Positions 3,113-26,911 of a DNA stretch of 29,526 nt are shown here, piece after piece. Under the pieces are notes generated by a model that made no database searches, had not been told where the DNA came from, and saw only the letters and a program-made list of their open reading frames with translations. The DNA is taken from the NCBI GenBank assembly GCA_019677205.1, contig JAAMXY010000271.1, forward strand, positions 1 through 29,526, given 5' to 3'. Position numbers and translations under genes: made by a program. Origin of the DNA: Pinguiococcus pyrenoidosus (taxonomy: Eukaryota > Sar > Pinguiophyceae > Pinguiochrysidales > Pinguiochrysidaceae). Position 1 is the first letter of the stretch, and the number at the start of each line of letters is the position of its first letter.

Positions 3113-4021
3113 TTACGCATCTTGATCTTGATCACCCTCTCTCTCACTCGTCTTTACCGCCGCCTTCTGTGCTTCATCCCTCTCTCCAAACCGCAACAGA
3201 GGCTGATTAGACATGGACACGCTGCGGTGCGGCGCCTTGTCGTCTCCGAAATACGTCTCTCCTGTCTGCAGGTCCAAGTAGTACCACGTCTGCTCCACTT
3301 CGTCCCAGTATCTCTCCCAGCCGTCGTCCACGTCGGCCGGCGCCACCGCCTGATCTTCCGCTTCGCCGCCCTTTCGCAGCTCCGGAGGCGCGATCCAGCT
3401 GGCCTCTCCTGTCGAGAAGTTGTACCAGTAAAAGGCCTGGGCCTCATCGTCCCAGTGCTCTTCCCATTCGGAGTCCGCCTTCGCGCGCAGCTCGTTCGCC
3501 TCCTCAGAACGCCTCTTAGGGCCCTCTCGCGGCGATTCTTCCGCCGTTTTCGCAGCTTTTTCCGACGCCAGAGGCTGACCCAAGGGCGGAGGCTCAACTT
3601 GCGGCAACGTGAGATTCAAACTGGAGCCGGCACCGCTCTTCATGCGTTGCAACACGTGCGGCGGAGGCCTTCGCAACGGTTCGGGAGGGCTCAAGGCGCC
3701 ATTTCCTCTCGTTCGAATCGGATTTCCAGCGATGGAATTCGCCTTTCGCGCGAGATACCCTCTCGCAAGCGCAGCAGAGGGGAAATCCTGCGCGGAAGCG
3801 CCTAAACGCGTTGGAGCGCTGCGTTTGCGTTCAAACTTGCTGTCCACTTCGCGGCCACCGGGCGCCAGAGGCTGCGAATCCTGCATCTGCGCGTTCTGGA
3901 GACTGTACCACACCCTATCCGCCCTTGTGTGGTACTGTGGACTCTTTTGCGGCGCTAATCGTAACGGCGCTCTCGCGTGGCGCGGTGGTCTCGGTTGGCG
4001 CGGCGGCGACCGCCGGTACAT
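3113..4021 (-). CDS. WW-domain protein with one canonical and one degenerate WW
   Basis: This is a single-exon protein of 302 aa when started at the ATG at 4021 (MYRRSPP); the frame stays open upstream but only to a GTG. The first ~180 residues are Arg/Pro/Ala/Ser-rich and probably disordered. WW1 lies at about 186-213 and has both signature tryptophans (186 and 209) and the PP following the second, as expected for a proline-motif binder. WW2 at about 235-264 keeps the first Trp and the central WYYLD strand, but the second signature Trp is Phe (TYFGDD) and the following proline is lost. The tail is charged. WW proteins act as adaptors in transcription, splicing or signalling, and nothing here picks a role. 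The gene is convergent with the protease gene and divergent from the NME7 gene. Confidence 0.75.
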   Translation of the reverse strand: MYRRSPPRQPRPPRHARAPLRLAPQKSPQYHTRADRVWYSLQNAQMQDSQPLAPGGREVDSKFERKRSAPTRLGASAQDFPSAALARGYLARKANSIAGNPIRTRGNGALSPPEPLRRPPPHVLQRMKSGAGSSLNLTLPQVEPPPLGQPLASEKAAKTAEESPREGPKRRSEEANELRAKADSEWEEHWDDEAQAFYWYNFSTGEASWIAPPELRKGGEAEDQAVAPADVDDGWERYWDEVEQTWYYLDLQTGETYFGDDKAPHRSVSMSNQPLLRFGERDEAQKAAVKTSEREGDQDQDA

Positions 4022-4423
4022 TGGCACGATTATCTCACCGCATCCATCATCAATCTTAAAATTGTCACCACCAAACTTCACATCTTGGATACTGAAATCG
4101 CACTGTAGGCGAAAGAGGTGGCGGGAAAGCCGGCGCTGCGGCGCTTTTGTGGCGCAAAAGACCTGTGGTAACAGATCTCGAGATGGTACTCCATCTTGAT
4201 AATTTCGTTTCTGTACTCCAAAGAGATATTATTATTCATCTATGCTACTGACCAAAGAATCAGGATTGCGGATTTGATTGGTTGGCAAGGGAAGCTCTCT
4301 TCTTTTCAGTACTGTATTCAGTGCGAAACGGTTCGAGTTTCCCGCGCTTTTGCGGATTCAAAACCGGAGAGAAGAGAGAAGAGAGCGCCGAATTTCGGTC
4401 GACTCTTCTTGCAGATCTGAAGA
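4022..4423. promoter_or_regulatory. Divergent intergenic region (WW gene / NME7 gene)
   Basis: The starts of two divergently transcribed genes bound this 402 bp, so it should hold both promoters. It is more AT-rich than the flanking coding DNA, especially around 4195-4300. No TATA box or other defined motif can be assigned with confidence. Confidence 0.35.
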
Positions 4424-6790: not shown

Positions 6791-9545
6791 CTAGCGGATG
6801 GCCTTCTGCCGCAGCGGTTCCAGCACCGACGCCAACGCCTTCTGGATCGGCTTGCGGTTGAGCTTGTTGCTCGCCGTGAGCAGCTGGTTCTCCGGGGTCC
6901 ATGGGCTGTTCACCGCGGCTTCCGTCTCCGGCCCATCGCCGCTGATCAGCGCGACGGTCTGCAGCATCTCATTGACCGCCAGGCCTCCGTTGCGGCCCTC
7001 CTTCCGAAGGTCCTCGAGCACCAGGTTGACGGCGGCCTCGTCTCTGCAAAGCTCTTCGGGATCCGCATTCTCCAGGCCAGTGCCCGTCATTCTCTTGCGG
7101 ATCTCGACAAGGTCCGCCTGCACGAGCGCCACGGGGCGGTCCATCTCGCCGTCGCCGTAACACATGATGCCTCCGTTGACGGCGTTCACGAAGACCGACT
7201 TGCCGTACTCCTTCTCCATGCTCTCAATCGCGATGTACTCTCCGCCCTTGAGCTTGATCAGGTTCTTCAGGCGGTCGACAATCTTCAGCGCGCCATCCGT
7301 CGTGAAGACCGCAATGTCTCCACTGTGGAAGAAGCCCTCCGAGTCGAACTCCTGCGCCGTCTTCTCCGGCTGCTTCAGGTAGCCACTGGATACGCTCGGT
7401 CCACGAATGAGAACCTGTGCCAAGAGTGTTGCATTAGTGTACAAGGAATACGACTTGAAGGCAGGCCAGCTAGGGGCGCGCCTTGGAAAGCCGGGGAAAG
7501 CCGTGAATCGGCCACACATCACCTCGCCGCGTCCCAGAACTCGTTCGCCATAGTGCATCGTGTCGGTCGAGAGGTAGGGCTCATCGTTGCGATCCAGGAC
7601 GGAGGGGACCATTCCACCGGTCTCGGCGCCCTCCTCGTCCTTCTCCGGCTCTGTGCAGTTGCGCAGCATGATCTCGACGCTGGCCACCGGCGGGCCCACG
7701 ACCAGGTTGCGGGGGTCGGACGGATACTGGACCGTTCCCGCGCAAGTCGTCTCGGTCAGGGCATAGCCCTGGCGTTATCAAAGAGTAATCCTCACGTTAA
7801 CGTGCGCGCACAAGAGGCGAAGCTTTTTCGTGTGGCTGCGGCTGCGCTGCGGCTGCGGCGGTCTTACCTGGATGAGCGGCGTAGCAAACGCGACGCGAAT
7901 GAAGGTCTGCACCTCGGAAGAAATGGGACCGCCACCGGTGATGAACAGCTTCGAGCGTCCGCCCAGCAGGGTCTTGAAGCGCTTGACGAAGAGAATGGCA
8001 TTGAAAAGGGGCGTGTCCATGTTGTGGTTGACCATGAAATTGCGGTAGCTAAAGGCCAGCTGGAAGAGGCCCCGGACCAGGCCGCTCTTCTTCGCCAGGC
8101 CGTCCTCCACGCCTTTCTTGAGGATGTCCCAGATCTTCGGAACAGCGGCCATGCAAGTGGGCCGGAACTCCTGGATGCCTCCCGGTGGCGTCGTGTCCGC
8201 GGTGTACTTCTCAGCCGCCTGGGTGACAATCGTGCCGTCATCGAGCTGACGGACGGCGCCCTTGGAGGAGATGGTCTTTGGGTCGCAAAATCCAAGCCGA
8301 GCCCCGAAGCAGATCATGGAGAACTCCGCACACAGCTCTAGAATGTGCGCGGCCGGCAAGTACGCAAGATAGGTTTCCTGCCCCGCGACCATGACCCCGG
8401 AGCTGGAGATGTAGTGCAGCAGCGCGGCAACGCTGGCGCAGATGTTGCGCTGCCGGATCATGACGCCCTTGGGCTTGCCCGTGCTACCGCTGGTGTACAT
8501 GATGACGGCCATGTTCTCCGGCTTCGGCTTGCGCAGCGCGACGGGCTGGCTGCGGCCCAGCTCCACGACCTCGTCCATGCTCAGGACGGTGATTCCGCCG
8601 CCTTCGACCTTGGGCGGCGTGGCAGCCTCCTCCGCGGTGACGTAGTTGGTCGAGTAGACGATATGCGTGAGCATGGGCATCCGGCCCGCGTTCTCCGCGA
8701 TCTTGGCCACGTTCTCGTAGTTGCAGAAGATGACCTTGACGTTGCACTCCTCCGCCGCGTCCGCCACGCTGGAGATCCCGAGCGTCGAGTAGCTGGTTGC
8801 GCACGCGAGGCTCTGGGTCATCGCGCCGATCATCGCCGTGATCCAGTCCGCGCAGGTGTTCTCGAAGATAAGCAGCGTGTGCGGGTCGGTCGTCTCCTCG
8901 TAGCGGGTGCCGCCGTTCTGTCCCTCCTGCGGGGGTAGCGGCACCATGCCCAGGTTGATGAGGCCGGCGCCGAACGCGAGCGCCCGCTCTTGAACTTGGC
9001 TGTACGTCTTCCACGTCGTCGCGCCAAAGCGCTTGAGAGAGTACTTGCTTCCCTCCTTCTTGTACGTGCCAAGATACTCGCGGGTGCCCAGGCACTCCTG
9101 GTCCGCATACATCTCAAACGCGCGAAGAACGCAGTCGATGCCGGTCTCGCAGTCGCTCTTTTGTTTCGCGGGAGAAAACGAACGGAATGCAAAAGAAGGA
9201 GGAAGATCAGCATGAGCACCACTTGCGCTTGCAGAGGGCCACAAGACCCACGCGCACGCTGCTCTTTCGTACCCATGCCGTGCTTCGAAGCGCCGTTTGC
9301 GTCGCTTCCAAGCGCTTCGCCTTCCCGACGTCCACCACCCGATAGCTGCTGGAGAAGGTCAGCATGAGCGTCTTCACCAGCCCCTTGCCCACGAAGGAGG
9401 TCAGGAGCCAGATGATGAAGTCCAGGAAGATGAGGATCCATGCGATGGGGTTGAAGAACACGCAGGCCGGACAGGTCGTGGAGGCCTTGAACGGCATGGG
9501 AGTCGCCGGCGGCGCCTTGCTCCCCTGAAGAGGCGCGCTCGACAT
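6791..9545 (-). CDS. Long-chain acyl-CoA synthetase 1 (AMP-forming, membrane-anchored)
   Basis: The model on the minus strand joins 9545-9273, 9157-7868, 7768-7523 and 7414-6791 (810 aa); all introns are GT-AG and phase 0 (115, 99 and 108 nt). The enzyme activates long-chain fatty acids with ATP to acyl-CoA. A hydrophobic anchor lies at about 27-53. The AMP-binding P-loop YTSGSTGKPKG lies near 312-322, followed by YLPAAHILE, ITGGGPIS, and GYALTET right after the second splice junction. GRGEV-LIRG spans the third junction, with the motif HSGDIAVF...DGALKIVDR and lysine-rich NLIKLKGGEY toward the C-terminus. The third intron has no in-frame stop, but it breaks the conserved GRGE/(V/I)xxRG strand, so splicing is needed. 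The first junction is the least certain. Likely located at ER or plastid envelope membranes by family habit. It is divergent in sequence from the second synthetase in this window. Confidence 0.87.
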
Positions 9546-11148
9546 CTTGGATTCCTCTGCTGCAGACTGAAAACACGAGAAAAAGCGTCAGCGGCGCCGC
9601 TTCTCCGACATCAGCTGACAGCGTCGCGGCGATGAGCGGCGCAGAATCGCTTCTCTCCACAGTGAGCTGCGTTTGAACCGCCATTCCTTCGGCGCCACCT
9701 TGATTTGCTCGGCCCTCCAAGCGGTCGAGGGCGGCTTTTGAACAGCGCCGCACGCTTCGCCGCACAAAGTCGCTCCGGCACAAGTCCGCACCAAGTGGAT
9801 TCAAAGCGTATCTAAGCTTCTGCGCGCGCGCGTTCCATTCACACGCCCTCTCCACACTTCCTAAAGGCGAAGCGTCATCTACCTCGGCCTTTAGCGGCTG
9901 ACGCAGTGAGTCTTCGCCGCCTTCCATGTGCAGAAATCCCCAATCTCTCCCCTCCTCGGCTATAGGTTACGCGCGTGTTCCCCCGTCTACGGTATACCTG
10001 CGACAGCAAAGGCCGCAGTTCTGCGTCTGCTGGTCCGCGTCGCCGGAGCGTGATGTCTGAAGCTGAAATTCTCCGCGGAGAATCTCGAAAAGCGGCGGAT
10101 CTCCAGTGAAAGTGCGGCGTAAACGGAGGAGATTTGCATCTGAAATGAATGAACTCCAGGATCCTCTTTTGGGCAAAGCGTCATACAACCGTTTACTTTG
10201 TATATTTATTTTTCGACTTCTTTGACAAAAAGCCACAATATTTTATATAGTATTTTGATTTAGAAATACTGACAACCGAGGAGCACTATCGATACAGGAT
10301 GGGGTGCTCGGCGCAGCTTGAAGTCAGCTGTCTTCGGACTGACTGGACTGTTTTCTCTCTTTTCGTACAGTTAGCAGACAGTTCGGCAAGGGAAAGCGGC
10401 GTCGGGAGGGGAAGTGTCGAACAACTTGCCGGTAACTTTGTCAGAGCCTACCAACCCTTGACGATCAGACTCGCCGAAGAAGAAGATGGGATTGGAACCA
10501 TCATCGGCATCTATCCGTCCCGCAAACAACTAGTCACCACTCGGCCGCGCGTCCTCTCCTCCTGCTATGAATGATCGACAGGCGGACTCGCTCGTCTTCG
10601 AGTGATTCCCCGGAGCAGTCTCGGAAAGGTTCCGCTGCGCGGCACTTGGCACGCGGTCGGGCCGGGGCGTACCCTTGAGTGCCGTATGCTGCAGGTTCAG
10701 TCAGCGGAAAAAAGTACAGCCACACGTCACGGGGCGGCACGCAGCGCTCGACTCGCTCGGAAGATGATTCCAAGCCACACAATGTTTTTGCCCCGCTTGG
10801 CAAGCAAGATGAGATGGAAAGCACGCGCACGAGGAGCGACGATAGGCTGACGCCATGTGCTACGCTCTCCATGTGTGCTCCGGAAAGGCGGTGGGACGTC
10901 GCGTAACCTAGGGCGCGAGTAGACGGTACAAATTGCAGGGTGTTTTCACTTCAACCGCCGCAGTGGACCCGAGCACGTGTTCGGCCCCTCTAGATCTATA
11001 CCATAGCCATGTAAGGCTCTCCGGCCACACGCAGAGGCCACGCGCTTTTCGCGATCGCTTCGCACCCGAAGGCCCCCAAAATGGCCCTTTTCCTCCCGAA
11101 TCCTCTCCGACGCCGCAGCGCCTCGGAGTCGACGCCTCGGACCCTGAG
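9546..11148. other. 1.6 kb gene-poor divergent region
   Basis: This region lies between the starts of the acyl-CoA synthetase (minus) and the surface-type protein (plus), so it should hold both promoters. A marked AT-rich patch lies at about 10190-10275. A 91-codon ATG frame at 10299-10574 (+) and a 112-codon frame at 10872-10534 (-) show no domain, and I do not call them. The frame of the downstream gene is open back to about 10933 but without an ATG. I see no tRNA, rRNA or mobile element. Confidence 0.4.
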
Positions 11149-12183
11149 ATGCTCGCAAGGAGTGGCGTTGCAGTGCTGCTGGCGCTCGGCGCCCCGCGGG
11201 CCCTGGGCAGGAACAGCTTCCAGCCCGACAGCGGCGCCGTGGCCGGCTCTCGCTTCTACAGCCGCCTGCGCGTGCAGAGCACCAGCGCCAGCCTGGCCCA
11301 GCTGTACATCTCCAAGGTGGAGATGACGGTGCCGGCGGGCGTGGTGGGGGTGAAGCCGGAGGCGAAGACGGGCTGGAACATCAGCATCGCTACGGGCGTG
11401 GTGGCGCCGTTCTTGGACCATGGCGACGAGGTGGTGGAGGGCCCCTTGCGGGTGACGTGGGAGGCGCTCAACGAGGATCACACGGTGCACAGCGACCACT
11501 TCTGGGACGCGCAGATGCAGATCCGCGTGGGCTGCGACATCCCCGAGTCCAACTTGACCACCATCTTCAACGGCTTCCACACGCTGTGGTTCCCCATCAC
11601 CTGGCACTACGCCGAGGAGGGCACGCACGAGGAGGTGGCGTCGGCGGAGACCGTCGGCGTGGCGGCGGGAGAGGGCAGCTGGTTCGGCATCCGCCCACGG
11701 GCGGCGCCTTTCATCCAGATCACGTCCACGGCGTCCTGCGGCGGCCGCAACGGAGACCCCAGCTGGCACAACGACAGCACTTGGGCGCTCACGCCGGAGA
11801 CCACTGCCAGCGAGACCTTTGTGCTGGGAGAGGTGGGCGTCCTGCGCGAGGCGCTGCTGGAGGACATGTTCCAGCTGCGCCAAAGCTTGAGCAGCTTGCA
11901 GAGCAGCATCCGCACCGAGTGCATCGCTGAGGACGACGCCGCGGGCAGTCGGCGGCGTCTGCAGTCCAGCGACTGCTTCTCAACCGCCAGCGGCTCCTCC
12001 AGCAGCGGCGGCGATGACGACGACGACGTCCGTCTGGCGCTGGGCCTCGGCCTCGGCCTCGGCTTGGGCGTCGGCCTGCTGTCCGTGCTGGCGCTGTACA
12101 TGGCGAAGAAGAAGCGGCCCGCGGCGAAGACGTACGAGTCGGTGACGGAGAAGGCCTACGTGCAAGAGGGTCACACCGCCTAG
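11149..12183 (+). CDS. Secreted/type I single-pass membrane protein, unknown family
   Basis: The chosen start is the first ATG in the frame (11149); it gives a textbook signal peptide (MLARSGVAVLLALGAPRALG) and a 344-aa single-exon protein. The ectodomain is rich in beta-type sequence and has three N-glycosylation sequons (NIS, NLT, NDS) and a few cysteines (GCDIP, ASCGG, TECIAE, SSDCF). A short Leu/Gln/Ser heptad-like stretch (about 236-255) precedes a basic RRRLQ site that could be a processing site. A Ser/Gly/Asp linker ending in five Asp leads to a Gly/Leu-repeat membrane helix at about 297-320. The cytosolic tail begins with KKKRP and contains Tyr residues in YESV and AYVQ. Topology is well supported; function is unknown. 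Confidence 0.75.
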   Translation: MLARSGVAVLLALGAPRALGRNSFQPDSGAVAGSRFYSRLRVQSTSASLAQLYISKVEMTVPAGVVGVKPEAKTGWNISIATGVVAPFLDHGDEVVEGPLRVTWEALNEDHTVHSDHFWDAQMQIRVGCDIPESNLTTIFNGFHTLWFPITWHYAEEGTHEEVASAETVGVAAGEGSWFGIRPRAAPFIQITSTASCGGRNGDPSWHNDSTWALTPETTASETFVLGEVGVLREALLEDMFQLRQSLSSLQSSIRTECIAEDDAAGSRRRLQSSDCFSTASGSSSSGGDDDDDVRLALGLGLGLGLGVGLLSVLALYMAKKKRPAAKTYESVTEKAYVQEGHTA

Positions 12184-13911: not shown

Positions 13912-16590
13912 ATGAGTGACATCGTGGAGATGATCGTGCTGCATCTGGTGGCGCTGGTGCTGGCGCTTCTGGACGTGGCTCTCTGGCTTTTCACCCTCGG
14001 ACCTGTGTGGATGATTCTGAAGCGGAGCCAACGCCCTACAAAGCAAGTCGTGCAGGTATTCCTTCGCATCGCGAATCTCTCCCTTACTCCCGTTGAGCAT
14101 TCGCGCGCGGTTTCTGCCCCAAAAAGTGGGTGCGATGAAGTCGCAAGGAGCGTGAACGACCAAAGATGTTCAGATGCGCGGGCATTCGGCAGCTTTTGCA
14201 CCTTCGGAAGCGCCTGGCGGTCGCGTTTCTTCCTGTTCTGGTTTGCAGCCGTCATCTCTCTTCAGTCCTCTATGGTCCTGAAGGCTTCCACCAGTATCGA
14301 TTGATTGGTGTTGACGCGAAGACCTCGAGAAACGCCTCTCGCTCTCACGCAGGATTTTGCGCATTTCTGTCCTCTTCTGGTACTTGTGTCACGAACTTCT
14401 GCCATCCCCGCAGGTCGGAGAAGTGGACGTGAATGGCGCGGATATGGCGCCCTCTCCAGTGTACCGTGTAGTCATGGCCAAGGACGGTCTTTGCCGAGCT
14501 CCTGGGAAAGATCGCTTCACGGCGTACGACATCCTGAAGCAAAGCGCCGCAGAGTTCGCGGACAAGCCCGCCCAGGCGTCGCGCAGCTTCCTTCGCTTCG
14601 AGAAAGTCCGCGAGACGGACAGGTTCCCAGCGCGAGTGTATGGCGAGACCAGGTACACCACCTACGCCGAGCTGCGCGAGCAGACGCTGGCGTTTGGCTG
14701 CGGCCTCCGGGCGCTTGGCATGGAGCCCATGCCGGCAAGCGGAGATCGGCTGGAAGACAAGAGCGGCGCGTTCAAGATGATCATCTTCGAGGACACGTGT
14801 CCAGAGTGGATGGTGGCGGCCCAGGGAGCGTTCTCGCAGTCCATGGTGGTCTTCACGTCCTACGCGACGCTGGGCATGGACAGCTTCGTCTCCGCCGTCA
14901 ACGAAGGAGAGGTGTGCACCATCATGTGCAACTACAAGTCGCTGGCGGAGGTGATCGAGCGCCTGGACCAGATGCCCAGCGTGCGCACGGTGATCTACAA
15001 CGCTTTCCTGGTGGAAGGCCCCATAGCTCCGCCCATTCTTCCGAAGAGCCAAAACGTGCGGGTGGTGAGCGTCGCCGAGACGCTGCAGATCGGTCGCAAG
15101 AACCCGCTCCAGCCGCAGCCTCCATCTCCGAAGGACGTCGCAGTGGTCATGTACACATCCGGATCCACGGGCAGTCCCAAGGGGGTCGTCATAACTCATT
15201 CGCAGGTATGGGTGGCCCAGGGGCGACCTTCGAAGCAAGCCGCCGTTGACAAGGCTCACACCTCACCTCTTTTGGGGACGCCCAGCTTGTTGGATGCGTC
15301 GCGGGCATCCACACCGTCCTGGCGGGGTACCTTGTCGATGGCGAGGAATCCTACGTGGCCTACCTGCCGTTGGCACACATCCTGGAGCTCGTTGCGGAGA
15401 CGACGATGCTGAGCCTCGGCAACCTCCTGTGCTACACCAACGTCACCGACCTCCTTGCCGGGCCGGGCAAAGCGCACCCCACGTCCGGCGGCTCCCTGGC
15501 CGTCTACGGCCCCACATGCATGGCCGGCGTGCCCAAAGTCTGGGAACGCATCATGAAGGGCGCGCAAGAGAAGGCCCAGCGGGGGCCTTCTTGGAAGAGG
15601 TTCCTTCTGAAGCTCGCCGTCAAGCTGAGCTCCATCGCGATCAAGCAGGGGCGGTACACGCCCCTGTTCGATGCCCTGGTCTTCAAGCCAGTGAGATCCA
15701 TGGTTGGCGGGAATCTCAAGTTCGCGCTCAGCGGTGGAGGCCCCATCTCCAGCGAAGTGCAGCAGTTCATTCGGGCAGCCTTTGGCTGTCCGCTCGTGCA
15801 GGGATACGGCCTGACGGAGGTCGCGGGTGCCGTGTCCATCCAGACCTTGAGAAGCGTGGAGCTGGGCGTGAATGGCCCGCCGCTCGGTAGCCTCGAGCTC
15901 GTCCTCCACTCGGAGCCGAGCTTCGCGGACCATGCCGGCCAGCCGTATCTAACGACGGACAAGTACGACGCCGATGGGAATCGGATCTTCGGTAGGGGAG
16001 AGATCTGGGTCCGCGGCGTGAGCGTCTCCAGTGGGTACTACAAGAAGGCGGACAAGACGGCGGAAGAGTTCGACGAGCATGGCTTCTTCCACACCGGCGA
16101 CATCGGCCAGCTGACCGCGCAGGGCGATCTGAAGATCGTGGACCGCAAGAAGAACCTGGTGAAGCTGAAAGGAGGGGAGTACGTCGCCTTGGAGCAGATG
16201 CAGACGGTGTACAACAACTCGCAGTACGTGGACCCCGGCAATGGCGGCGTACTGGCCTACGGAGACGCAACGCTCGATCGGCCGATCCTTCTGGTCCAGG
16301 TCGCCAGCGGCCCGCTGCGGCGCCTTTCGAACGAGCTCGGCATTGAAGGCAGTGACGAGGACCTAGCGCAGAATCCCGATATCGTCAAGGCTGTCCACGC
16401 CGATCTGCTCAAGATTGCAAAGGCCGGCAAGCTGCCGAGGTTGGAGCATGCGGCTGCCATCGCTCTGCTCACCGAGGCATGGTCGCAGGAGAACGGATGC
16501 CTCACGGCGACGCACAAGCTGCAGCCTCGCGTGATCAAGATCCACAACAAGGCAGAGATTTCCAAAATGCTGCAGGCGGTGCAGAAGTAG
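13912..16590 (+). CDS. Long-chain acyl-CoA synthetase 2 (AMP-forming, membrane-anchored)
   Basis: The model joins 13912-14055, 14414-15205 and 15286-16590 (746 aa), with GT-AG phase-0 introns of 358 and 80 nt, each after CAG. The first exon encodes only an N-terminal hydrophobic anchor (about 5-36) followed by a basic stretch. The adenylate-forming core starts near IYDILKQSA-like helix DILKQSAAEFADKPA. The P-loop YTSGSTGSPKG (295-305) lies just before intron 2, and YLPLAHILE, LSGGGPIS, GYGLTEV, GRGEIWVRG, HTGDIGQL, IVDRKKNLVKLKGGEY follow. It makes acyl-CoA from free fatty acid, CoA and ATP for membrane lipid synthesis or beta-oxidation. It shares family motifs but no clear intron position with the other synthetase in this window, so they are old paralogues rather than a fresh duplication. 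Confidence 0.9.
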
Positions 16591-16813: not shown

Positions 16814-18009
16814 CTAGTCCTCCTTCGAGGACCTGTCCACGCGATCCCGGCCGCCGAAGAGCACGTTCTGCGGCATGATGGGGATCTGCGCGCCTACCTC
16901 GCCACTCATATCCACTTCTGCCGCCACACCCGCTGCGCTTGCGGAGCCCCGCGACGCCACCGCGTCGCTAAGGAACTGTCGGAAGGAGCGGTAGTAATGG
17001 CTGCCTCCTACTCGGGACGTGTCGTTGTGCATGCCCTCCGGAATCTGCAGCAGGCGCCGCAAGACGGAGGACGTCGCCTTGTCGTGCAGCTTCTGCACCT
17101 GCGCAGGCGGCACGAGCTCGTCCATCAGGCCCGAGATGAAGAGGATCGGCATCTGCAGCTCCGCAATGAACTTCAGCGAGTCCCACCCGATGCGGAGCAC
17201 GAAGGGCTTCAGAGACGCCAGGAACGGCATCACGACGTCCACCATCTCGCTGATGCTTGTGAAGGTATTCTCCACAACGACCAAGCGCACGTGATTCGGC
17301 CGCGCATGGGCAAGATGCAAGGCCACAGCGCCTCCCAGACTCCGGCCAAACACGCCAATCTTCAGCGGGTCGACCCGGCGCTGCGTCCGCAAGGCGTCCA
17401 AGCACGCTTCCGCATCTTTCTTCAGCCCGTTCTCGCTGGGCACACCTTCGCAGAGCCGAGCATTACATCGTGAAGCCTTTCCCACCCAAAAACTTCTCTC
17501 AGCAAACCTCCCAAGATACGGGACGTACCGGTGCTGTCGCCATAACCTCGGTAGTCCACGATCATCACGTTGACGTCCAACTTCTTGTACATGGCCTCCA
17601 GGTTGTCCATACGGAAGCCGATGTTGCCGGCGTTGCCGTGGAAGTACAGCAGCGTGATCTTGTCCTCGGAGTTGGGTTGCAAGAGCAGCCACGAGTGCAG
17701 CCGCGTGCCATCTGGCGGCGCAAAGGGGATATTTTTTGGTGAATCCGCCTATTTCGGCAGCGAAAAACAGGCGATTTGCCCACCTCCAACGTCCACGTAG
17801 AAATCTTGGTAGTTGAGGTCCCTCTCGCCGGGACTCTTGTAGCCGCGCGGGTTCTGCCGCGGAGATTTGGGCAGCTGCGCGCCGGCGTCGGGGAAGTACA
17901 GCAGTTTGTCCTGGAAGGCGTACAGCAGTGCGACGGCCAAAAAGGTCAGGCCGCCGACTATGGCAACGGAGTACCGGGTGGCGTCCCAAAGAACGCTCAG
18001 AACGGACAT
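16814..18009 (-). CDS. ABHD13: ABHD13-like alpha/beta serine hydrolase
   Basis: The model on the minus strand joins 18009-17784, 17711-17529 and 17445-16814 (346 aa; human ABHD13 is about 337). The introns are 72 and 83 nt, phase 1, with donors GTGGGC and GTACGT; joining them yields the family motifs DGTRLHSWL and DYRGYGDSTGVPSENG. An N-terminal membrane anchor lies at about 12-31. The HGNAGN oxyanion motif is at 100-105, the nucleophile Ser172 in GRSLGG, the acid Asp245 in SGLMDELVPP and the base His276 in PEGMHND. The family (ABHD13/BEM46/WAV2) contains membrane-anchored hydrolases, and its substrate is poorly defined. A tail of about 45 residues after the fold is Ala/Ser/charged. A more distal ATG at 18249 exists, but the ATG at 18009 places the anchor at the N-terminus as in the family. 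Confidence 0.88.
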
Positions 18010-18532
18010 TCTGGCGGGAAATTCGAAAAAGAAACCAGCGGAAAAGCGCGGGAAACCAAGCGAAATCGCAGGATCGATACTGAGTGAAACAGGACGGATG
18101 GACACCGGGCTGTGACTGGATGGAGCCTCGTATCCACCAGTATCTTCACCTGGAATGGCAGGCGTAAGGGTTCGGTCGTAGCGAGATGATTCGATGCTGG
18201 TGAGACTTGCAAACGGTAGATTCTTATTTTGGCCATTGTTTCCGAGCATAAAGCGGATAGAAATATTTAGATTTTGAGCGTGTTATCGCAGTCGAAGCGA
18301 TGAGGGGGTGAGACATCCACTTGATTTACACTTGAATCTTGATTCGAGGTGCGCATTGACAACAACACAAATTTTGAAAGATTTCATGTTTTATTTGCCA
18401 ATGAGCATAAGTTTATGTACCAGAAAAGATGGTGATATCATCTGCCAAACATTTTTCTGAAAAGATTCACCCGCAAAAGCCCGCCACAGCTTGCGCCTTA
18501 AAGAGCGCGTGCGGCGCTTATCCGTTGCGAGG
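18010..18532. promoter_or_regulatory. Divergent region between ABHD13-like and coat-protein genes
   Basis: This 523-bp AT-enriched spacer lies between two divergent starts and probably carries both promoters. No specific box is assigned. The minus frame remains open for 80 codons above the chosen ABHD13 start, with an ATG at 18249, so part of it may be transcribed 5' leader. Confidence 0.35.
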
Positions 18533-21500
18533 ATGCAATCTCTGGGCCTTCGCGCAGATGTGCCGCTGCGCGGTGGCCTGAGCCTCTCGCGTGTGCTAGC
18601 AGCCACCGACGACAATGTGCTGGTCGCCTCCGGCACCCGACTTCACGTGTTCAGCACTCATACCAGCGGCCTCGTGGCCAGTGGCGTCCCTGGCAGCGCC
18701 ACAAGAGAGGGACGAGTTGTCAAAGCGCCAAGGTGAGCTTGGTAACGGATGAAGATCCAGTGGGGAGCCGCTGCGGACGGACAAAACACCGAAACCACGA
18801 GATGGCGACGTGGGTCGGCGACAGAGACGAAGCGCCACTGAAGTCCAAAGTGCATTCTTGATGCACCGCCTTGCTCGTATGAGTGGCAAATGTGCGAAAT
18901 GTGTGATGAGTCGTAAGCAAGTGGGGAGGAATGGGCAAAAAGCGCGGCAGTGCGGCGCCAAAGTGACAGTTGGGACAGACCGGAGTTTAAGCAGAGATTC
19001 ACCACGCTGACCAAGAGTGCTGTCTTCGATCTCCAGCCCTACGCAGTCGCTGGCCGGCTCCACGCTGGTGACCACTGGGGGCGGGGCAGGGTCCATCCCC
19101 AGCACGGTGTTTGTGATGGCGCTGGATGGGCTGAGCTTCAGCCTCTTTGATGCCCACACGGCGACGTTCTTGGACACGCTGTACATCAAGCAGAAAGGCG
19201 CCAGCGCCACCGCGATTTCACTGCTCGCAGGCTCTCGAGGCCATCCAGATCCCTTCCTCTTCGTGTGCAGGGAGGGTGGGAGAAATCTGCAGCTGGTGTC
19301 GCTGCTCGGCAAGGGCACGACCATCGTCTCCTTCCCCACCTTTCCGCTGCCGGACAACAGCTACGGCTCGGGCACCGGGAAGCCCAAGCAGCACCAGGCC
19401 GACCGCGTCGTCGCCATGGCCGCGCATCCGCATGGTCTGGGCCTGATCGTCGCCTTCGCGGATGGCTACGTGATCTTGTACGACTACGGCAGCATCCGCA
19501 CGGCGGTCGGCGACGACGATGATTTCGGCGGGTATGGAGACGACGGCGGAGGGAACGGGTATGCCGTGCACCCCGCGATGCGCTTTCCGATCCCCGTGGG
19601 TGCGGATAATCCCCATGGCAGGGATGGCGAGTGGGCGCTGGTGCCGGGCTCCGGGTTGCGACCCGTTGCGGTGCTTCTCGGGAGCACGGGCGACGCCCGG
19701 GCGTTTCCCCCGTTGCCAAACGGACCTGGGAACGCCGCCGGCGGCGTGTCCGTGAATCTGTGCTTCAAGGCCGTCGCGAACGAGGTGCTGGTCGGGGGAG
19801 TGAGCAGTACCAGCGTGGGATCCAGCGTGAGCAGCCGCGTGATGGTCTGGCGAGTGGCCATCGGATCCAGCGGTCACTACGCGGAGAACCGACTGACCAG
19901 CGCCGGGTGCCTGGGCTTCCGTGAGGCCCCTGTCCTCTCGATCGGAGATGGAAGCGTGCCCATGCGGATCGTGGATGTGGCGTTTCACCCGACGGAGCAC
20001 GTGCTCCTCGGCGTCGGCTCCGGCCTGACCGACCGCAGCAGCAATGCGTCAGCGATGCGACTCATCTCGTTCAGCTATCTCTACCCGGGCCTGCCGATCC
20101 GGTGCCTGTCTGCGGCCCTGCCGCAATGCCGCGGCTGGGCCGTCAGCGAGAGGACCAACTCGATCTGCTTCCTGAGCACGGCCAACGCGGACGTCGACCA
20201 AGGAAGTGCTCCCATCCAGCCCGCGCAGACCCCGCGCCTCCTCTTTACGACGCTGCTGGACTCCGTCGGTGCACCGTGCAACGGAGGCAACGTGGGTGCT
20301 CCGCTCCAGCTGCCGCTGAATGGCTGGCTGGAGGACCTCAGCGTCCAGGATGCCCGGATGGCTGGCCTCCCGCTTCCCCTCTGCGTGCCGTATGCCACTC
20401 CCGTGGTCAAGACGGCCAAGTCCGGGGTCAGCAATCGCTCCATCGTCAGCAAGATCGTCATGGCGGTGCAGAAGCTGGAACGCCACGTCGACTTGAAGGA
20501 GGACAAGGCGCGACCCAAGCGGCTCGGCGTGCTGGAGGGGTTCGCCGAGAAATGCAACTGGGCGCCGACGAATCCCTCGCAAGGTCGAAACGCGCTGGAG
20601 ACGCACGAAGGCGCGCTGTATCCCGTGCGCTGCGTGTGGGCGCCCAACAGCACTGCCGCGGTCTTCTTCTTCCAGACCTTGCCGGCCCGCGACGTGCTGT
20701 CGGTAGCGGATGAGGACTACGTGTTGCGCTTCGCCAAGACCCAAGCGTACTGCCTGGCCCCCACGGGCACCTCGGTGGTGAACGCGAGCATCTACGACCC
20801 CGTCCCGGAGACGCAGCTGCGGAAGGGAATCGACGCCGCTTTCGTCTGGGTGTACAAGACGGATGCCAAGGGCGCCTTCGTGCAGGTCCGAGGCTTGTGT
20901 ATCCTTGCCGAGCCCAACAAGCTTCTCCTCCAGTCCTTCGAGACCGGTCAGGTCAAGGCCAACATCGCTCTCCAGGCGCCGGCCAGAAGGATCTTCGAGG
21001 TGCCGGCCGAGATCTGCAAGGACAAGGCCCAGGCGCTCTACGTGCTGCGGCGGCAGCTGCCTGCGGACTTCATCACGGAAGGCAAGAATGGAGACCTGAA
21101 GCAGAGTGGCATGCCGTTGAGAAGTAGCTTCTACGACGAGCGATTGGGCAAGGACGGGACGGGACCCCCGGCGGCGAGCAGCATCTGCGAGATTCTCGCC
21201 TACAGCGCGCCGAACACCTTTGCCACGCCATCGCCCGGTGCCCTGGACACCCGGATTCGGCAGCGCTTCGGCGGCCGTGCGCCCGCGACCATCCTCCAGC
21301 CCGTCGGAGAGCTGAGCAACGTGATGTTCATCTTCCCTCCCGGGGAGAACATCGTGGACGCTCTCTGGCAGCCGGTGGATCCGGAGCCGGTGCAGAACGA
21401 CGCCAGCCGCTTGTGGACCAGGGCGCACCGGGAAGCTGCGACGGGGGCGCCTCACCCGGACGCGGAGGAGGTCGGCAAACCGCTGCTCGCCGTGCGCACG

Positions 21501-24500
21501 ACGCACCGGGCGCTCATCTTCGACTACAAGATGAAGCTGCTGGCGGCAACCACCGTCCCCCGGTGGCTCATCAGCACGGACTTGATGTCCGCACCGACGG
21601 AGACGATGCGCGGCAACGACGAGTGCATGTTCAGCGCGCCCATCTCGATGATCTGGGCGGCCGATACGCTCCTTGTGGGATTCGAAGGGGGCATGGTGAA
21701 GGCGCTGAGCCGCGAGGCGCCGAATGGTCAGCCAGGTCCGTCGACTAGCGTGTCCTTGAACATGTCACCCGTGCTGTCGCTCGATGCGAGCAAGGTGGCG
21801 GGAGGCTACCAGATCCTATCCGCCCTTCCTACGCGCCTGATCTTGCTCCAGCGGAGCAACGGCACGGGGGCTGGTCGCATCGTCACCCGACCTTTCTTTC
21901 CCCTCGAGCCGCTTCTGCAAGGCATCATGCATCACGTGCCGGTGTCGCCCGTGCAGGATTCCAACTCGATCCGCGGCAAGATGAAGCCCACGTTCATGGC
22001 ACTGCTGACGGCGCTCATCGCTCGCTACAGCCGCAGCAAGACCCCAAGCGCCAGCGCGCGTCCCGGTGAAGGTGCCGGAACGACGGCGGGCATCACGACG
22101 CGGGTCTTCAACATGCTATTGTCCATCCAGTGCTACGAGCTGGCGGCGCTCGTTGCCGGCGTCGCGCGTCAGTTCGGCGACAACACGGGCCTGGGGTACC
22201 GCCACCGGCCTTTCATCAGCGTGGCCGAGAAGGTGGAAGTCGCGCTGGCCATGCAGTGGTTCGAAGGGGCCCTCCTGGAGGTCACGTCGGAGAAGCCGAG
22301 TCTCAGCGAGTACCTGCAAGACCCTGATCCGATGTCCTCCGCTCCGCTGCCCCATCCGTATTCGAAGGAGGCTGCGATTGCGCACGCGATCGGGAGCTTC
22401 GCCAAGCTCTACGGCAGGTTGGACGTGGCCGCCAGGGCGTTTGATCTCTGTGGCGACGACTACTCCCTGCTCGAGGTGCTCATGGAGGCGAAGGAGATGG
22501 ACCCCGACTCGACCACCACGAGCTTGGAGAATCTGCGTGATGCGGCGGCGGCCGTCGGCAGCAGTCTCACGGTCAACCTCGCGGAAGCCATCCTGAGCGG
22601 CACTCCGCAGGATGCTGAGAGCATCGCGAAGCATCTGCACCAGGACCAGAGCCGCGATCCGCACAACGCCGGCGGACTGAACTACTTCGCCATGGCGGAC
22701 ATCGTCACCGACATTGTGCCCCCAGGCACGCGGGCCTTTCCAGACTGCAGCCGGAAGATGGACGGCATGGTGCCGTTCCAGCTCAGCACGCTTGTGCACC
22801 AGACATCGCAGCATCGGGAGAAAGCCAGCCGCTCCTTCGGCGTCGAGTTTCCGCGCAGGTCGTCCTTGATCCAAGGCCTCGAGCTGCTGCCGACGCGCCC
22901 GCCGATTCCGACGCTGTTCCAGCTGCAGCCGCTTCCGTTCCCGGCCGATTACGCTGGGCCGCTTCCCGGCCTGGAGAACGTTGAGAAGAACTTCGACCTC
23001 GCGCATTTCTACAAGCCGCCGCCGAGCTGCTCACTGCGTCCGCTGCTTCTCGATCGGCTGGAGGAGTGGATGGGGCAGACGCGGTATGCCGCCGCTGAGG
23101 AAGACACCGCGGCCGTGCTCTCCCCTACCGCCGGTCCAAGCAAGGCGGCGGCCCGTTCTGCTGGCCTCACCGGAGAGGAGGACAAGAGCAACTGGTCTGT
23201 CATGGGCAACGGCAACGACGTCGGGCTGGGTCGTGGTGAGGAGGACAACGTGGTGCTCTACATGCGCTTCCACAACCTTGAGGACGTGAAGCCGCATCCG
23301 ATCCCCAGCGGCCGCGGTGTCCGGATCAACGTGGAGGATCTGATCGGGGACCTGTTCACCCCGCCCAATCCCGCCCCGTTCGTGACGTTCGCCGCCCCTG
23401 GTGGCGTGACGTTCAAAGAGAGCATGAGTCCTGCCGACCAGGGCAACGAGAAGCGGGTGCATGGTGCTTTCGACCTCGTTTTCGGGGACGGCCCGGATGC
23501 TCTGAAGCCCGCCGGCGGGATCGCACGCCCGCCGGACAGCGTGGGGGCGCTGCTCAATGCGCTTCGTGGCCTGAGGGTCCCCGTCCCGCGGGGTGCGCCT
23601 TGTGACATTGGCGTGGCCCACCGCGACACGCCCAACCGCGCCAGCATCACGGTGGAGATGTTCATTCGGATTTCGGATGCCGGTCTGCAGGCCATCGCGG
23701 CCACCTGTGCGGCGGGCAGGAAGGCCTATCTCCTGGCGGCAAGGGTCACCGGGCCGGCTGCTGGCACGGCGGGAAAGCCGAGCGTGAACTGGTCCCTTGG
23801 TATCCTGCCGGACGGCTCCGTGGTGTGGGGTGCCGGCCTCGTGAGCGGGACGGCGAAGTGCCTGAAGACTCCAGAGCCAGTCCTGAGTGGCAATCGCTGG
23901 GTGCACTTGGCCGTCACCCTGGACTTCCGCAATGCGGATGACGGAGGAAAGCCGGGCTGCTCCCAGGCGCGTCCGAGCGGCAGCATCATCGTGAATGGCG
24001 ACGAGGTCGCCTCGGGCATGCTCCAGGGCGAGGTTGTGGACCCGAAGAACGCGAAGCGGTCGTTCATCCTCTTCGGCGCGTCGGCGCCGGCGGGCTTGTC
24101 CTTCACCGAGCTTCGGGTGTGGGCGGCAGTCAGGGAGCCGATCGAAGTGAGCGACCTTCGCGAGACCTATCTGAATGCCGCGAAGAAGAAGAGGAAGATG
24201 CGGGTCAAGATGGCGCACAAAGATGGAGAGGACGACGCGACCATGCCGCCGCCGCTGCGGAATGACCAGCAGAGCATCAGGATGGCACCGTCGCAGAACA
24301 TGGCCTTCATGTCGGTCGCTGCGGGAGCCCTTCCGGCCGCGTCGCCCCCTCCCTCCGGAGCGAAAGACTCCGAGGACAACGCCACGTCCCCTGCAGGAGG
24401 CCTGGCGAAGCCCTCGCCGTCCGGTGGCCTCGCCAAGCCTCCGGGCGGGCTCGGGTTGGCGCCTCCGCCCAAGTCGGGAAGCGCTGCCTCGCGGCGCTTG

Positions 24501-26911
24501 CGGGCGCGCGAGGCCGCCAAGAAGCCCAAGCCGAAGAAGACGGACGCGAAGGGCTTCGACGGTTTCGCCACCGGCTTTGGGGGCGGAGGCGGCTTCGCCA
24601 CGGGATTCGGCGGAGATGGTGGCGGCTTTGCGACTGGATTCTCCACGGGCGAGGGATTCGGCGGCTCTGGGGACGGCGGCGGTGGCGGTGGCTTTGCTGC
24701 GGGTGGCTTCGCCGCGGCGTTTGAAGAGCCGGAGGAGGCGCTGGGCAAGAAGGAAGACAGGGACGCCAGCGAGCCCAAGACTCCCATGAAGGAGGAAGGC
24801 GGCGACGAGCCAGTCGAGAACGGCACTCCCGTCGTGGCGGAGGAGGAGGAGGAGGAGGAGGAGGAGAAGGGAAGCGCGCTGACGAAGGACGATAGCAGCG
24901 ACGAGGACGAGGCAGCAACGCCGCGACCGCAGTCCCGTGGTCTCTTCAATGGCAGTGCCGAGGATGACGAGGACGAGGACGAGGACGACGAGGATGAGGA
25001 TGGGGCGGTGGACATCGGCGCCCTGGGCGAGGAGGCGGAGACCGCCGCTGGAGCGGCTCCTCCGCCCCTGCCGCCAAAGCCGAAGACGCTTGTTGTGCAC
25101 AGTATGGAAGAAGCCGAAGTCGGTGAAGCGCCTCTCTTCTCCCTCCAGGAAGATGATCCCAACGATCCGCGACCGGTGACTCTCCCCTCGCACAAGGAGC
25201 TCAAGGGCGTCGGGCTCCGCATCGAGGACATGCTCCAGGAGCGAAAGTCCGACTTCTTGAACGATGACCTGGTCGGCTGCTGGACCGTGGCGGCCACCTC
25301 CGCGGAGTCCAAGGATGAGGACGGCGAGAATCGTGACGATGCCGCCATTGTGGTCTTGCGCCTCAGCATGCTTGACCGCACCACGGAGAGGGCATCCCGC
25401 TACCCGATGGAGAGCGACAGCGCCATCATTGCTCCAAATCCACGTGCTCGATCGGACGGACAGCCCCGGAGAAACTTTCCAGTGCTCATGGCGCTGTACG
25501 ATCAAGAGAAGACTCGGCTGCAGGTGTATGACGTGATCCGCCGGAAGCGCATCAAGCTTCAGGGCATGGCCGTGCCGCTGGTCTTCTGGCGCTGGCTTCG
25601 CTACGGCAGGAAGCAGGACGCGGCGGACGACATCCCATACATTGGCATCGTGACGCCCGGGGTGATCTATCACTGGCCTCTCGGGAGCCTGGTTTCACCG
25701 TCGGCGCAGCAGACTCGACCGCAGAAGGTTCTGACTCGAGACGCGAACGTCGAGGACGACGAGGAGATCGTCGCTTACGACGTCACACCGGACGAGCAGT
25801 GGGCAATGCTGGTCACCACGTCAAAGACTCGTCGAGATGGGGCGCAGAGCACGGGGGACAGGGTCTCTCACGCTTGCTCCGTCATTTTGTGGCATCTTCC
25901 TTCCAAGTCCGTCGTCACCTCGGGAGACTGCCTGGGAGCGACGTTCATGCGCGTCTTCGACACCGAGTCCAACGCGGTGGTGTCCGCTTTCGCAAGACTT
26001 CTGGCGGACCAAGGCGGAGAGCAGGTCAAGCTCGATGTGAGAAAGCTTGGGACCTTCTCGGAATCCGAGCCGGAGGCTGCGATTAGCGAATCGGTCGGCA
26101 ACTTCTCGTTTGCTGCATCGCCAAACACATCCAACGGCTCGAGTGCCAGCACCAAGTCCTGGCGATGGAACATCTGTCCCTTGCTGAGACCGAGCCAAGA
26201 GCAACCCACCGATGGCGGCGCTCTCTCCATCTACGCGCCTCCCTTGAACTCGAAGACGGCTGCAATCGTGGACATGGACGCAGGAGTGATCTATGTCGTC
26301 TTCATCGGAACCGGCACGGTGCTCTTCGAGGTACGTTCTAGTCTCCAGTGCCTGAGCATGCTGTGATCCCTGTGATCCCTGTGATCCATAGAGTCTCCCC
26401 CTCCCCCCCCACCGATTGCCTTTTCTAAGCGTGGCCTTGGTTTCCCTTCTTCTTTCAGCTGTCCATTCGAGACGTGGTCGCTGCGTCGGGTGAGGTGAGC
26501 GCGGAGGAAATTCAAGTCTTGGAAGTGCGTGCCCAGGCTGGCAACCGGAGTTTGGATGCAAACAATGCTTTCAAGCAGCAACCGGTGGACACCAGGGCCG
26601 CATGCGAGCTTGCGATTTTGACAAGGTGCGCGGGGCATGCTCTCGGCTCTTTCTGGCCTTTTGGGGGAGCGACCTAAACCTGGCTTTCTTGTCCCTCCTT
26701 TCAGGGCGGGAAAGGTGTGGCGCTGCATGGTACGGTGGCCGCAACTCTTGGACCATGTTCAGGTAGGTGGAAAGGGTGATGCATGGCCTCTTGCCTTGCC
26801 TTGCCTTTGCTCATCTTTCCTTGTGCTTCCCCCTTCGCCCATCTACCGCAGTCGACGCTGAATGAAGCAGCCGTGGCCAGTGCGATCCAGACGGATAATG
26901 GGACAGATTAA
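18533..26911 (+). CDS. Giant coat protein: TTRAY1-like double propeller/solenoid fused to clathrin-type N-terminal propeller
   Basis: The model joins 18533-18732, 19016-26330, 26459-26625, 26705-26762 and 26852-26911 (2,599 aa). All introns are GT-AG with consistent phases; the first acceptor (CCAAG) is weak. Residues 1-1030 resemble the two WD-type propellers of TTRAY1/TWD40-1, a beta'-COP-like subunit of the TSET/TPLATE coat (VVAMAAHPHGLGLIVAF, VAFHPTEHVLLGVG, LYPVRC, KGIDAAF, LEPLLQG). An alpha-solenoid follows (about 1055-1420, with YGRLDVAARAFDLCGDDYSLLEVL). A ConA/LamG-like domain lies at about 1605-1790 and Gly/Phe repeats at 1910-1968. An acidic linker lies at 2008-2070. From about 2125 to 2599 the sequence reads as a clathrin heavy-chain N-terminal propeller (SDSAII, LQVYDV, LVFWRWL, IGIVTPGVIYHW) and ends at the first linker helix. 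The usual TTRAY1 C-terminal region is not seen. Homologies are by eye. Confidence 0.8.
23633..24180 (+). other. Concanavalin A / laminin G-like domain inside the coat protein
   Basis: Residues about 1605-1790 carry the beta-sandwich pattern of LamG/ConA-like domains: SITVEMFIRIS, a WSLGILPDGSVVWG strand pair, the signature NRWVHLAVTLDF, SIIVNGDEVASG, and FTELRVWAAVREPIEVSDL near the end. Such domains bind carbohydrate or protein; intracellular examples are known in BEACH proteins. The assignment rests on the hydrophobic pattern and the RWVHLAVT signature. Confidence 0.6.
24552..24730 (+). repeat. Gly/Phe-rich coding repeat (GFATGF)
   Basis: Three GFATGF units and related GFAAGGF and FAAAF motifs are spaced by glycine runs in about 60 residues. 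The segment is followed by EEPEE. The repeated Phe residues in a disordered context resemble short appendage-binding motifs of trafficking proteins, but no known motif is matched exactly. Confidence 0.7.
24838..25020 (+). repeat. Acidic coding microsatellite
   Basis: Runs of GAG and GAC/GAT codons encode long Glu and Asp stretches (EEEEEEEEE near 2008 and DDEDEDEDDEDEDG near 2049). They form a flexible acidic linker just before the clathrin-like propeller. The trinucleotide runs probably vary in length between strains. Confidence 0.8.
25190..26911 (+). other. Clathrin heavy chain N-terminal-domain-like propeller
   Basis: Residues about 2125-2599 align by eye, in order, with the human clathrin terminal domain: ESDSAIIAP (human ADSAIMNP), RLQVYDVIRRKRIK (TLQIFNIEMKSKMK), LVFWRWL (VTFWKWI), IGIVTPGVIYHWPL (VALVTDNAVYHWSM), DEQWAMLVT (KQKWLLLTG) and, across three small introns, AILTRAGKVWRCMV...LLDHVQSTLNEAAVASAI (GIIGVNRKGQVLSVCV...IPYITNVLQNPDLALRM). 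The positions equivalent to the clathrin-box groove are Q2236, Y2238, R2243 and R2245. The match in order and spacing is too good for a generic WD propeller. Confidence 0.75.
26361..26387 (+). repeat. 9-bp direct repeat, three copies, in an intron
   Basis: CTGTGATCC occurs three times in tandem inside intron 2 of the coat gene, directly after the donor-proximal in-frame stop. It is followed by a C-run at about 26399-26410. Confidence 0.85.

Follow-up and report, generated by a model that had tools for sequence, protein, structure and literature searches.

A clathrin terminal-domain homologue at the C-terminus of a large predicted protein of Pinguiococcus pyrenoidosus

The gene and its features

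The window analysed here is a 29,526-nucleotide stretch of the Pinguiococcus pyrenoidosus genome (assembly GCA_019677205.1, contig JAAMXY010000271.1, positions 1 to 29,526, forward strand), in which positions 18533 to 26911 hold a predicted gene whose product ends in a homologue of the terminal domain of the clathrin heavy chain (CHC). Genome searches took in 23.7 Mb on 768 contigs, with the window gene on contig C118. The frame at 19011-26366 (+) runs through 2451 codons without a stop; the longest in 200 shuffles had 521. With five predicted exons and GT-AG introns, the spliced product has 2592 or 2599 residues and one terminal stop; an alternative acceptor for exon 2, at 19016, gives the 7,315-nt exon of a preliminary description of this locus. 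That description placed the two halves of the protein in a single stop-free exon, and this is borne out by the open frame and by the third-position GC content (GC3), which stays between 0.74 and 0.86 in every one of the 13 exon-2 bins, junction region included. The features of the gene are as follows.

18533..18732, + strand: exon 1, start codon and first N-terminal residues (predicted; GT donor at 18733, in frame with exon 2)
19037..26330 (or from 19016), + strand: exon 2, bulk of the protein and majority of the clathrin-like domain (2451-codon open frame; GC3)
26459..26625, + strand: exon 3, later portion of the clathrin-like domain (in-frame GT-AG boundaries)
26705..26762, + strand: exon 4 (in-frame GT-AG boundaries)
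26852..26911, + strand: exon 5, ending in the only stop codon (in frame)
19037..21959, + strand: N-terminal part, fold unproven, supposed WD40-type propellers (one sub-threshold WD40 repeat; weak collinear likeness to a plant TWD40 sequence)
21960..22883, + strand: supposed alpha-solenoid, residues ~1042-1349 (successive helices in a single-sequence model of low confidence, pLDDT 35.8)
23637..24149, + strand: ConA-like lectin/glucanase domain, Laminin_G_3, PF13385 (Pfam)
24210..25085, + strand: low-complexity, net acidic linker of 292 residues, Gly/Ala/Glu/Pro/Asp (composition; translation)
25206..26911, + strand: clathrin heavy-chain terminal-domain homologue, spliced residues 2124-2592 (profile, pairwise and BLASTP comparisons with clathrin)
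25512..25556, + strand: stretch that aligns with clathrin's clathrin-box groove (sequence alignments)

The C-terminal clathrin homologue

The C-terminal domain shows significant sequence homology to CHC terminal domains, with an identity to clathrin chains of 23-33%. The clathrin profile match peaks over CHC profile positions 82-175 and is weak again at 317-355, a second stretch that scores negative in the whole-protein run; the top BLASTP match covers CHC positions 53-239. At its far end the profile match reaches about CHC position 355, which leaves seven residues to the protein's C-terminus, and the homologue stops near where the clathrin linker and leg start. The PF00637 leg repeats have no match in the window, and the protein shows neither the leg repeats nor the trimerisation end of a whole CHC. 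Of the eight PF00637 matches listed in the genome, seven lie within the true CHC. A short clathrin-repeat match outside the clathrin gene (G000:C644:3052-3285, E 1.6e-6) falls in a 442-aa frame.

A clathrin profile search had been proposed alongside the preliminary description as a check, and its outcome depends on the models: the stock Pfam clathrin models match neither the frame nor its pieces, whereas profiles built from real clathrin chains do. The latter were used because stock PF01394 matched nothing genome-wide nor in 14 controls. An NCBIfam scan returned nothing up to E 1, and the best clathrin match of a single-sequence PDB search with the domain reached only E 0.18. For folding, alignment A3 with 12 clathrins was chosen; the larger clathrin alignments A2 and A4 were dropped, since in them the domain tail was smeared along the clathrin leg. 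With regard to a seven-blade propeller fold, the resulting AlphaFold2 model of the exon-2 part of the domain (last 93 residues omitted) consists largely of beta structure and is of middling confidence (pLDDT 51). Its top fold matches are clathrin, the model itself being built on a clathrin alignment. A PDB search with the A3 profile gave clathrin in 12 of 13 rows; it returns clathrin by construction and is not counted as evidence. The clathrin propeller that the preliminary description saw at the C-terminus is strongly supported by the sequence homology to CHC terminal domains.

The peptide-binding groove appears to be partly preserved. PDB-chain residues T87-L88-Q89-I90-F91 align with R-L-Q-V-Y, and K96 and K98 align with R and R. 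According to the available portion of PMC11543927, Q89 is the clathrin-box anchor and, in the yeast chain, K96 and K98 are salt-bridge or contact residues. Thus, at the aligned places Q89 is kept and the two lysines are kept in kind as arginines, T87 being replaced by R, and the predicted groove could still work.

In a tree of 20 database clathrins, the genome's own clathrin and the window domain, the last of these has a branch of about 10 changes per column and no firm placement; the AU test does not reject (p-AU 0.416) a topology in which it joins the pinguiophyte clathrins. When the BLASTP matches of the window domain are ranked, pinguiophyte clathrins come 5th and 11th and the genome's own 58th of 98. 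The genome also holds a normal CHC gene, whose closest relative among the matches listed is that of Phaeomonas parva (Pinguiophyceae in the NCBI taxonomy), with 87% identity over 95% of the frame, as fits a pinguiophyte-like ochrophyte alga. Against 5.8 billion proteins, residues 550-1480 found no relative up to E 0.001 among 8000 scored candidates, and the C-terminus none up to E 0.1 among 7996. Because the C-terminus search also missed the homologous clathrin chains, these searches could reveal close relatives only. Viral and prokaryotic contigs yielded no relatives.

The N-terminal part, the ConA-like domain and the neighbouring genes

Upstream of the clathrin homologue lies a ConA-like domain that was missing from the preliminary list of parts. 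Laminin_G_3 matches at E 1.2e-6 and 29.1 bits when the piece is scanned alone, above the curated cut-off of 27.6, and at 24.7 bits, below that cut-off, when the whole frame is scanned. The 292-residue linker connects this domain to the clathrin terminal domain and is probably a disordered tether.

The remainder of the protein is harder to place. We infer that it contains propellers, which probably make up the N-terminal part, followed by a solenoid, and that it may be of the TTRAY type, that is, related to TTRAY1/TTRAY2 (TWD40-1/-2) of the TSET/TPLATE coat. A chain test gives a weak collinear likeness of the N-terminal part to a plant TWD40 sequence that was not taken from a database record, and Pfam finds one WD40 repeat in the N-terminal thousand residues, below threshold (E 0.068). 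Three ordinary tests do not support the likeness to that sequence, and pairwise comparison with the genome's own alpha-COP and partial beta'-COP stays at noise level. The AlphaFold2 model of residues 572-1404, made with no alignment (pLDDT 35.8), is too poor for a fold and was left out of the fold search; it has helices at ~1042-1349 and mixed helices and strands upstream, with no propeller seen. Nor does this poor model bear out a strand-rich N-terminal part. Pfam scans of the protein detect no coat family, and a PDB search with the residues of 19038-22001 turns up nothing but four rows for surfactant protein D, all at chance level (E 0.78-1.3). With one sub-threshold WD40 repeat, noise-level COPI comparisons and only weak likeness to TWD40, the TTRAY1-like double propeller and solenoid of the preliminary description are not shown. 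Taken as a whole, its observation is confirmed and its interpretation partly supported, strongly so for the clathrin propeller and for the open exon that this shares with most of the protein.

The alpha-COP and beta'-COP subunits of COPI share the supposed propeller-solenoid layout; unlike them, the window protein has no PF04053 match and no significant similarity, and the genome encodes two separate COPI B-type proteins. With regard to other TSET subunits, PMC12167817, in the portion available, assigns five of the six to pinguiophytes as a group. Small-subunit longin matches in the genome number 12 rows, with subunit identities not assigned. The single match to the mu-homology domain (muHD) is below cut-off and sits in an AP mu-like frame at G000:C51, L018:253-1977, which also has a longin match. 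A reading of it as TCUP was rejected, since this frame, judged by its sequence, is presumably an AP mu subunit.

The neighbouring genes in the window are the following.

396-2855, + strand: Peptidase_S41 (E 3.1e-44) together with a PDZ domain, a pairing found in carboxy-terminal processing proteases
3116-4228, - strand: WW-domain frame (E 4.4e-10, in 2 stretches)
7781-9358, - strand, and 15250-16587, + strand: two distinct AMP-binding enzyme regions on opposite strands (E 7.3e-45 and 1.9e-25, respectively)
10912-12180, + strand: DUF1775 match (E 4.3e-8, above cut-off)
16817-18145, - strand: alpha/beta hydrolase, Hydrolase_4 (E 3.8e-11), just upstream of the fusion gene on the opposite strand

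A possible adaptor-reading scaffold

The explanation that we consider best, at about even chances, is a large coat-type scaffold with probable N-terminal propellers, an alpha-solenoid, a ConA-like domain, an acidic tether and a terminal clathrin propeller that reads adaptors. As in clathrin's own terminal domain, the tethered propeller would dock short clathrin-box peptides of adaptors, such as the AP-1/AP-2 hinges and epsin-like proteins. Lacking a leg, the protein would be unable to build a clathrin lattice; its role would then be that of a built-in reader, one that could bring the scaffold to adaptor-rich or clathrin-coated sites or compete with clathrin for the same peptides. The arrangement differs from clathrin, where the terminal domain (CHC residues ~1-360; Clathrin_propel/Clathrin-link) sits at the N-terminus of a ~1,700-residue leg; here it lies at the C-terminus of another protein.

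A narrower version, that the scaffold is a TSET subunit and that TSET, the older coat, took over the adaptor-reading head by gene fusion to form a hybrid coat component, is held tentatively, at just short of even. The supposed order of propellers and then solenoid is that of TTRAY1/TTRAY2, which, like the COPI B-subunits, are scaffold proteins (PMC4031984, in the portion available). The same source describes TTRAYs as two propellers plus a solenoid, with neither a ConA-like domain nor a clathrin terminal domain. In a competing view, possible but somewhat doubtful, the C-terminus is a true clathrin relative and the N-terminal part belongs to some other trafficking protein of propeller-solenoid or WD40 type, or to a lineage-specific ConA-like scaffold. 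Ordinary tests link the N-terminal part significantly to none of COPI, clathrin or the plant TWD40 sequence, it contains no Pfam coat family, and the ConA-like domain is foreign to TTRAYs so described. The adaptor-reading mechanism would then be the same, in a coat other than TSET.

The remaining alternatives fare worse. The very long branch and low identity would suit a degenerating piece of a duplicated clathrin gene that was picked up at another gene's end and is functionless by itself; this is improbable, as the domain is open across four exons with no stop, GC3 stays high in its exon-2 part, and the groove residues are kept in kind. It is even harder to maintain that two genes, one for a scaffold and one clathrin-like, appear as one just through the way the frame was read or through an assembly error. 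The gene model is predicted from genomic sequence, and a low-complexity junction such as this is more prone to errors of assembly and splicing, but the frame runs stop-free between the halves with GC3 unchanged in range across the junction. Finally, an ordinary WD40 propeller resembling clathrin by chance or general fold would fit the silent stock models and the weak single-sequence PDB match, and is hardly credible given the significant homology to CHC terminal domains.

The preliminary description knew of no protein with this architecture, and none is described in the open-licence literature on TSET, TTRAY1/TTRAY2, TPLATE and clathrin heavy chain fusions, so far as its accessible text extends; the words propeller and fusion are absent from the available main text of PMC12167817. 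The terminal domain is the adaptor-reading part of clathrin, and here it is found off the leg, on a long linker, attached to another large protein. This provides a natural test of whether the clathrin terminal domain is, by itself, a portable module for reading adaptors, in an organism that has a normal clathrin gene too. If the N-terminal part is a TTRAY, the protein bears on the question, raised in the accessible part of PMC4031984, of how TSET, its own scaffold notwithstanding, came to work with clathrin. In the hybrid-coat reading, TSET could draw on clathrin adaptors with no clathrin leg involved, or assemble together with clathrin via shared adaptors.
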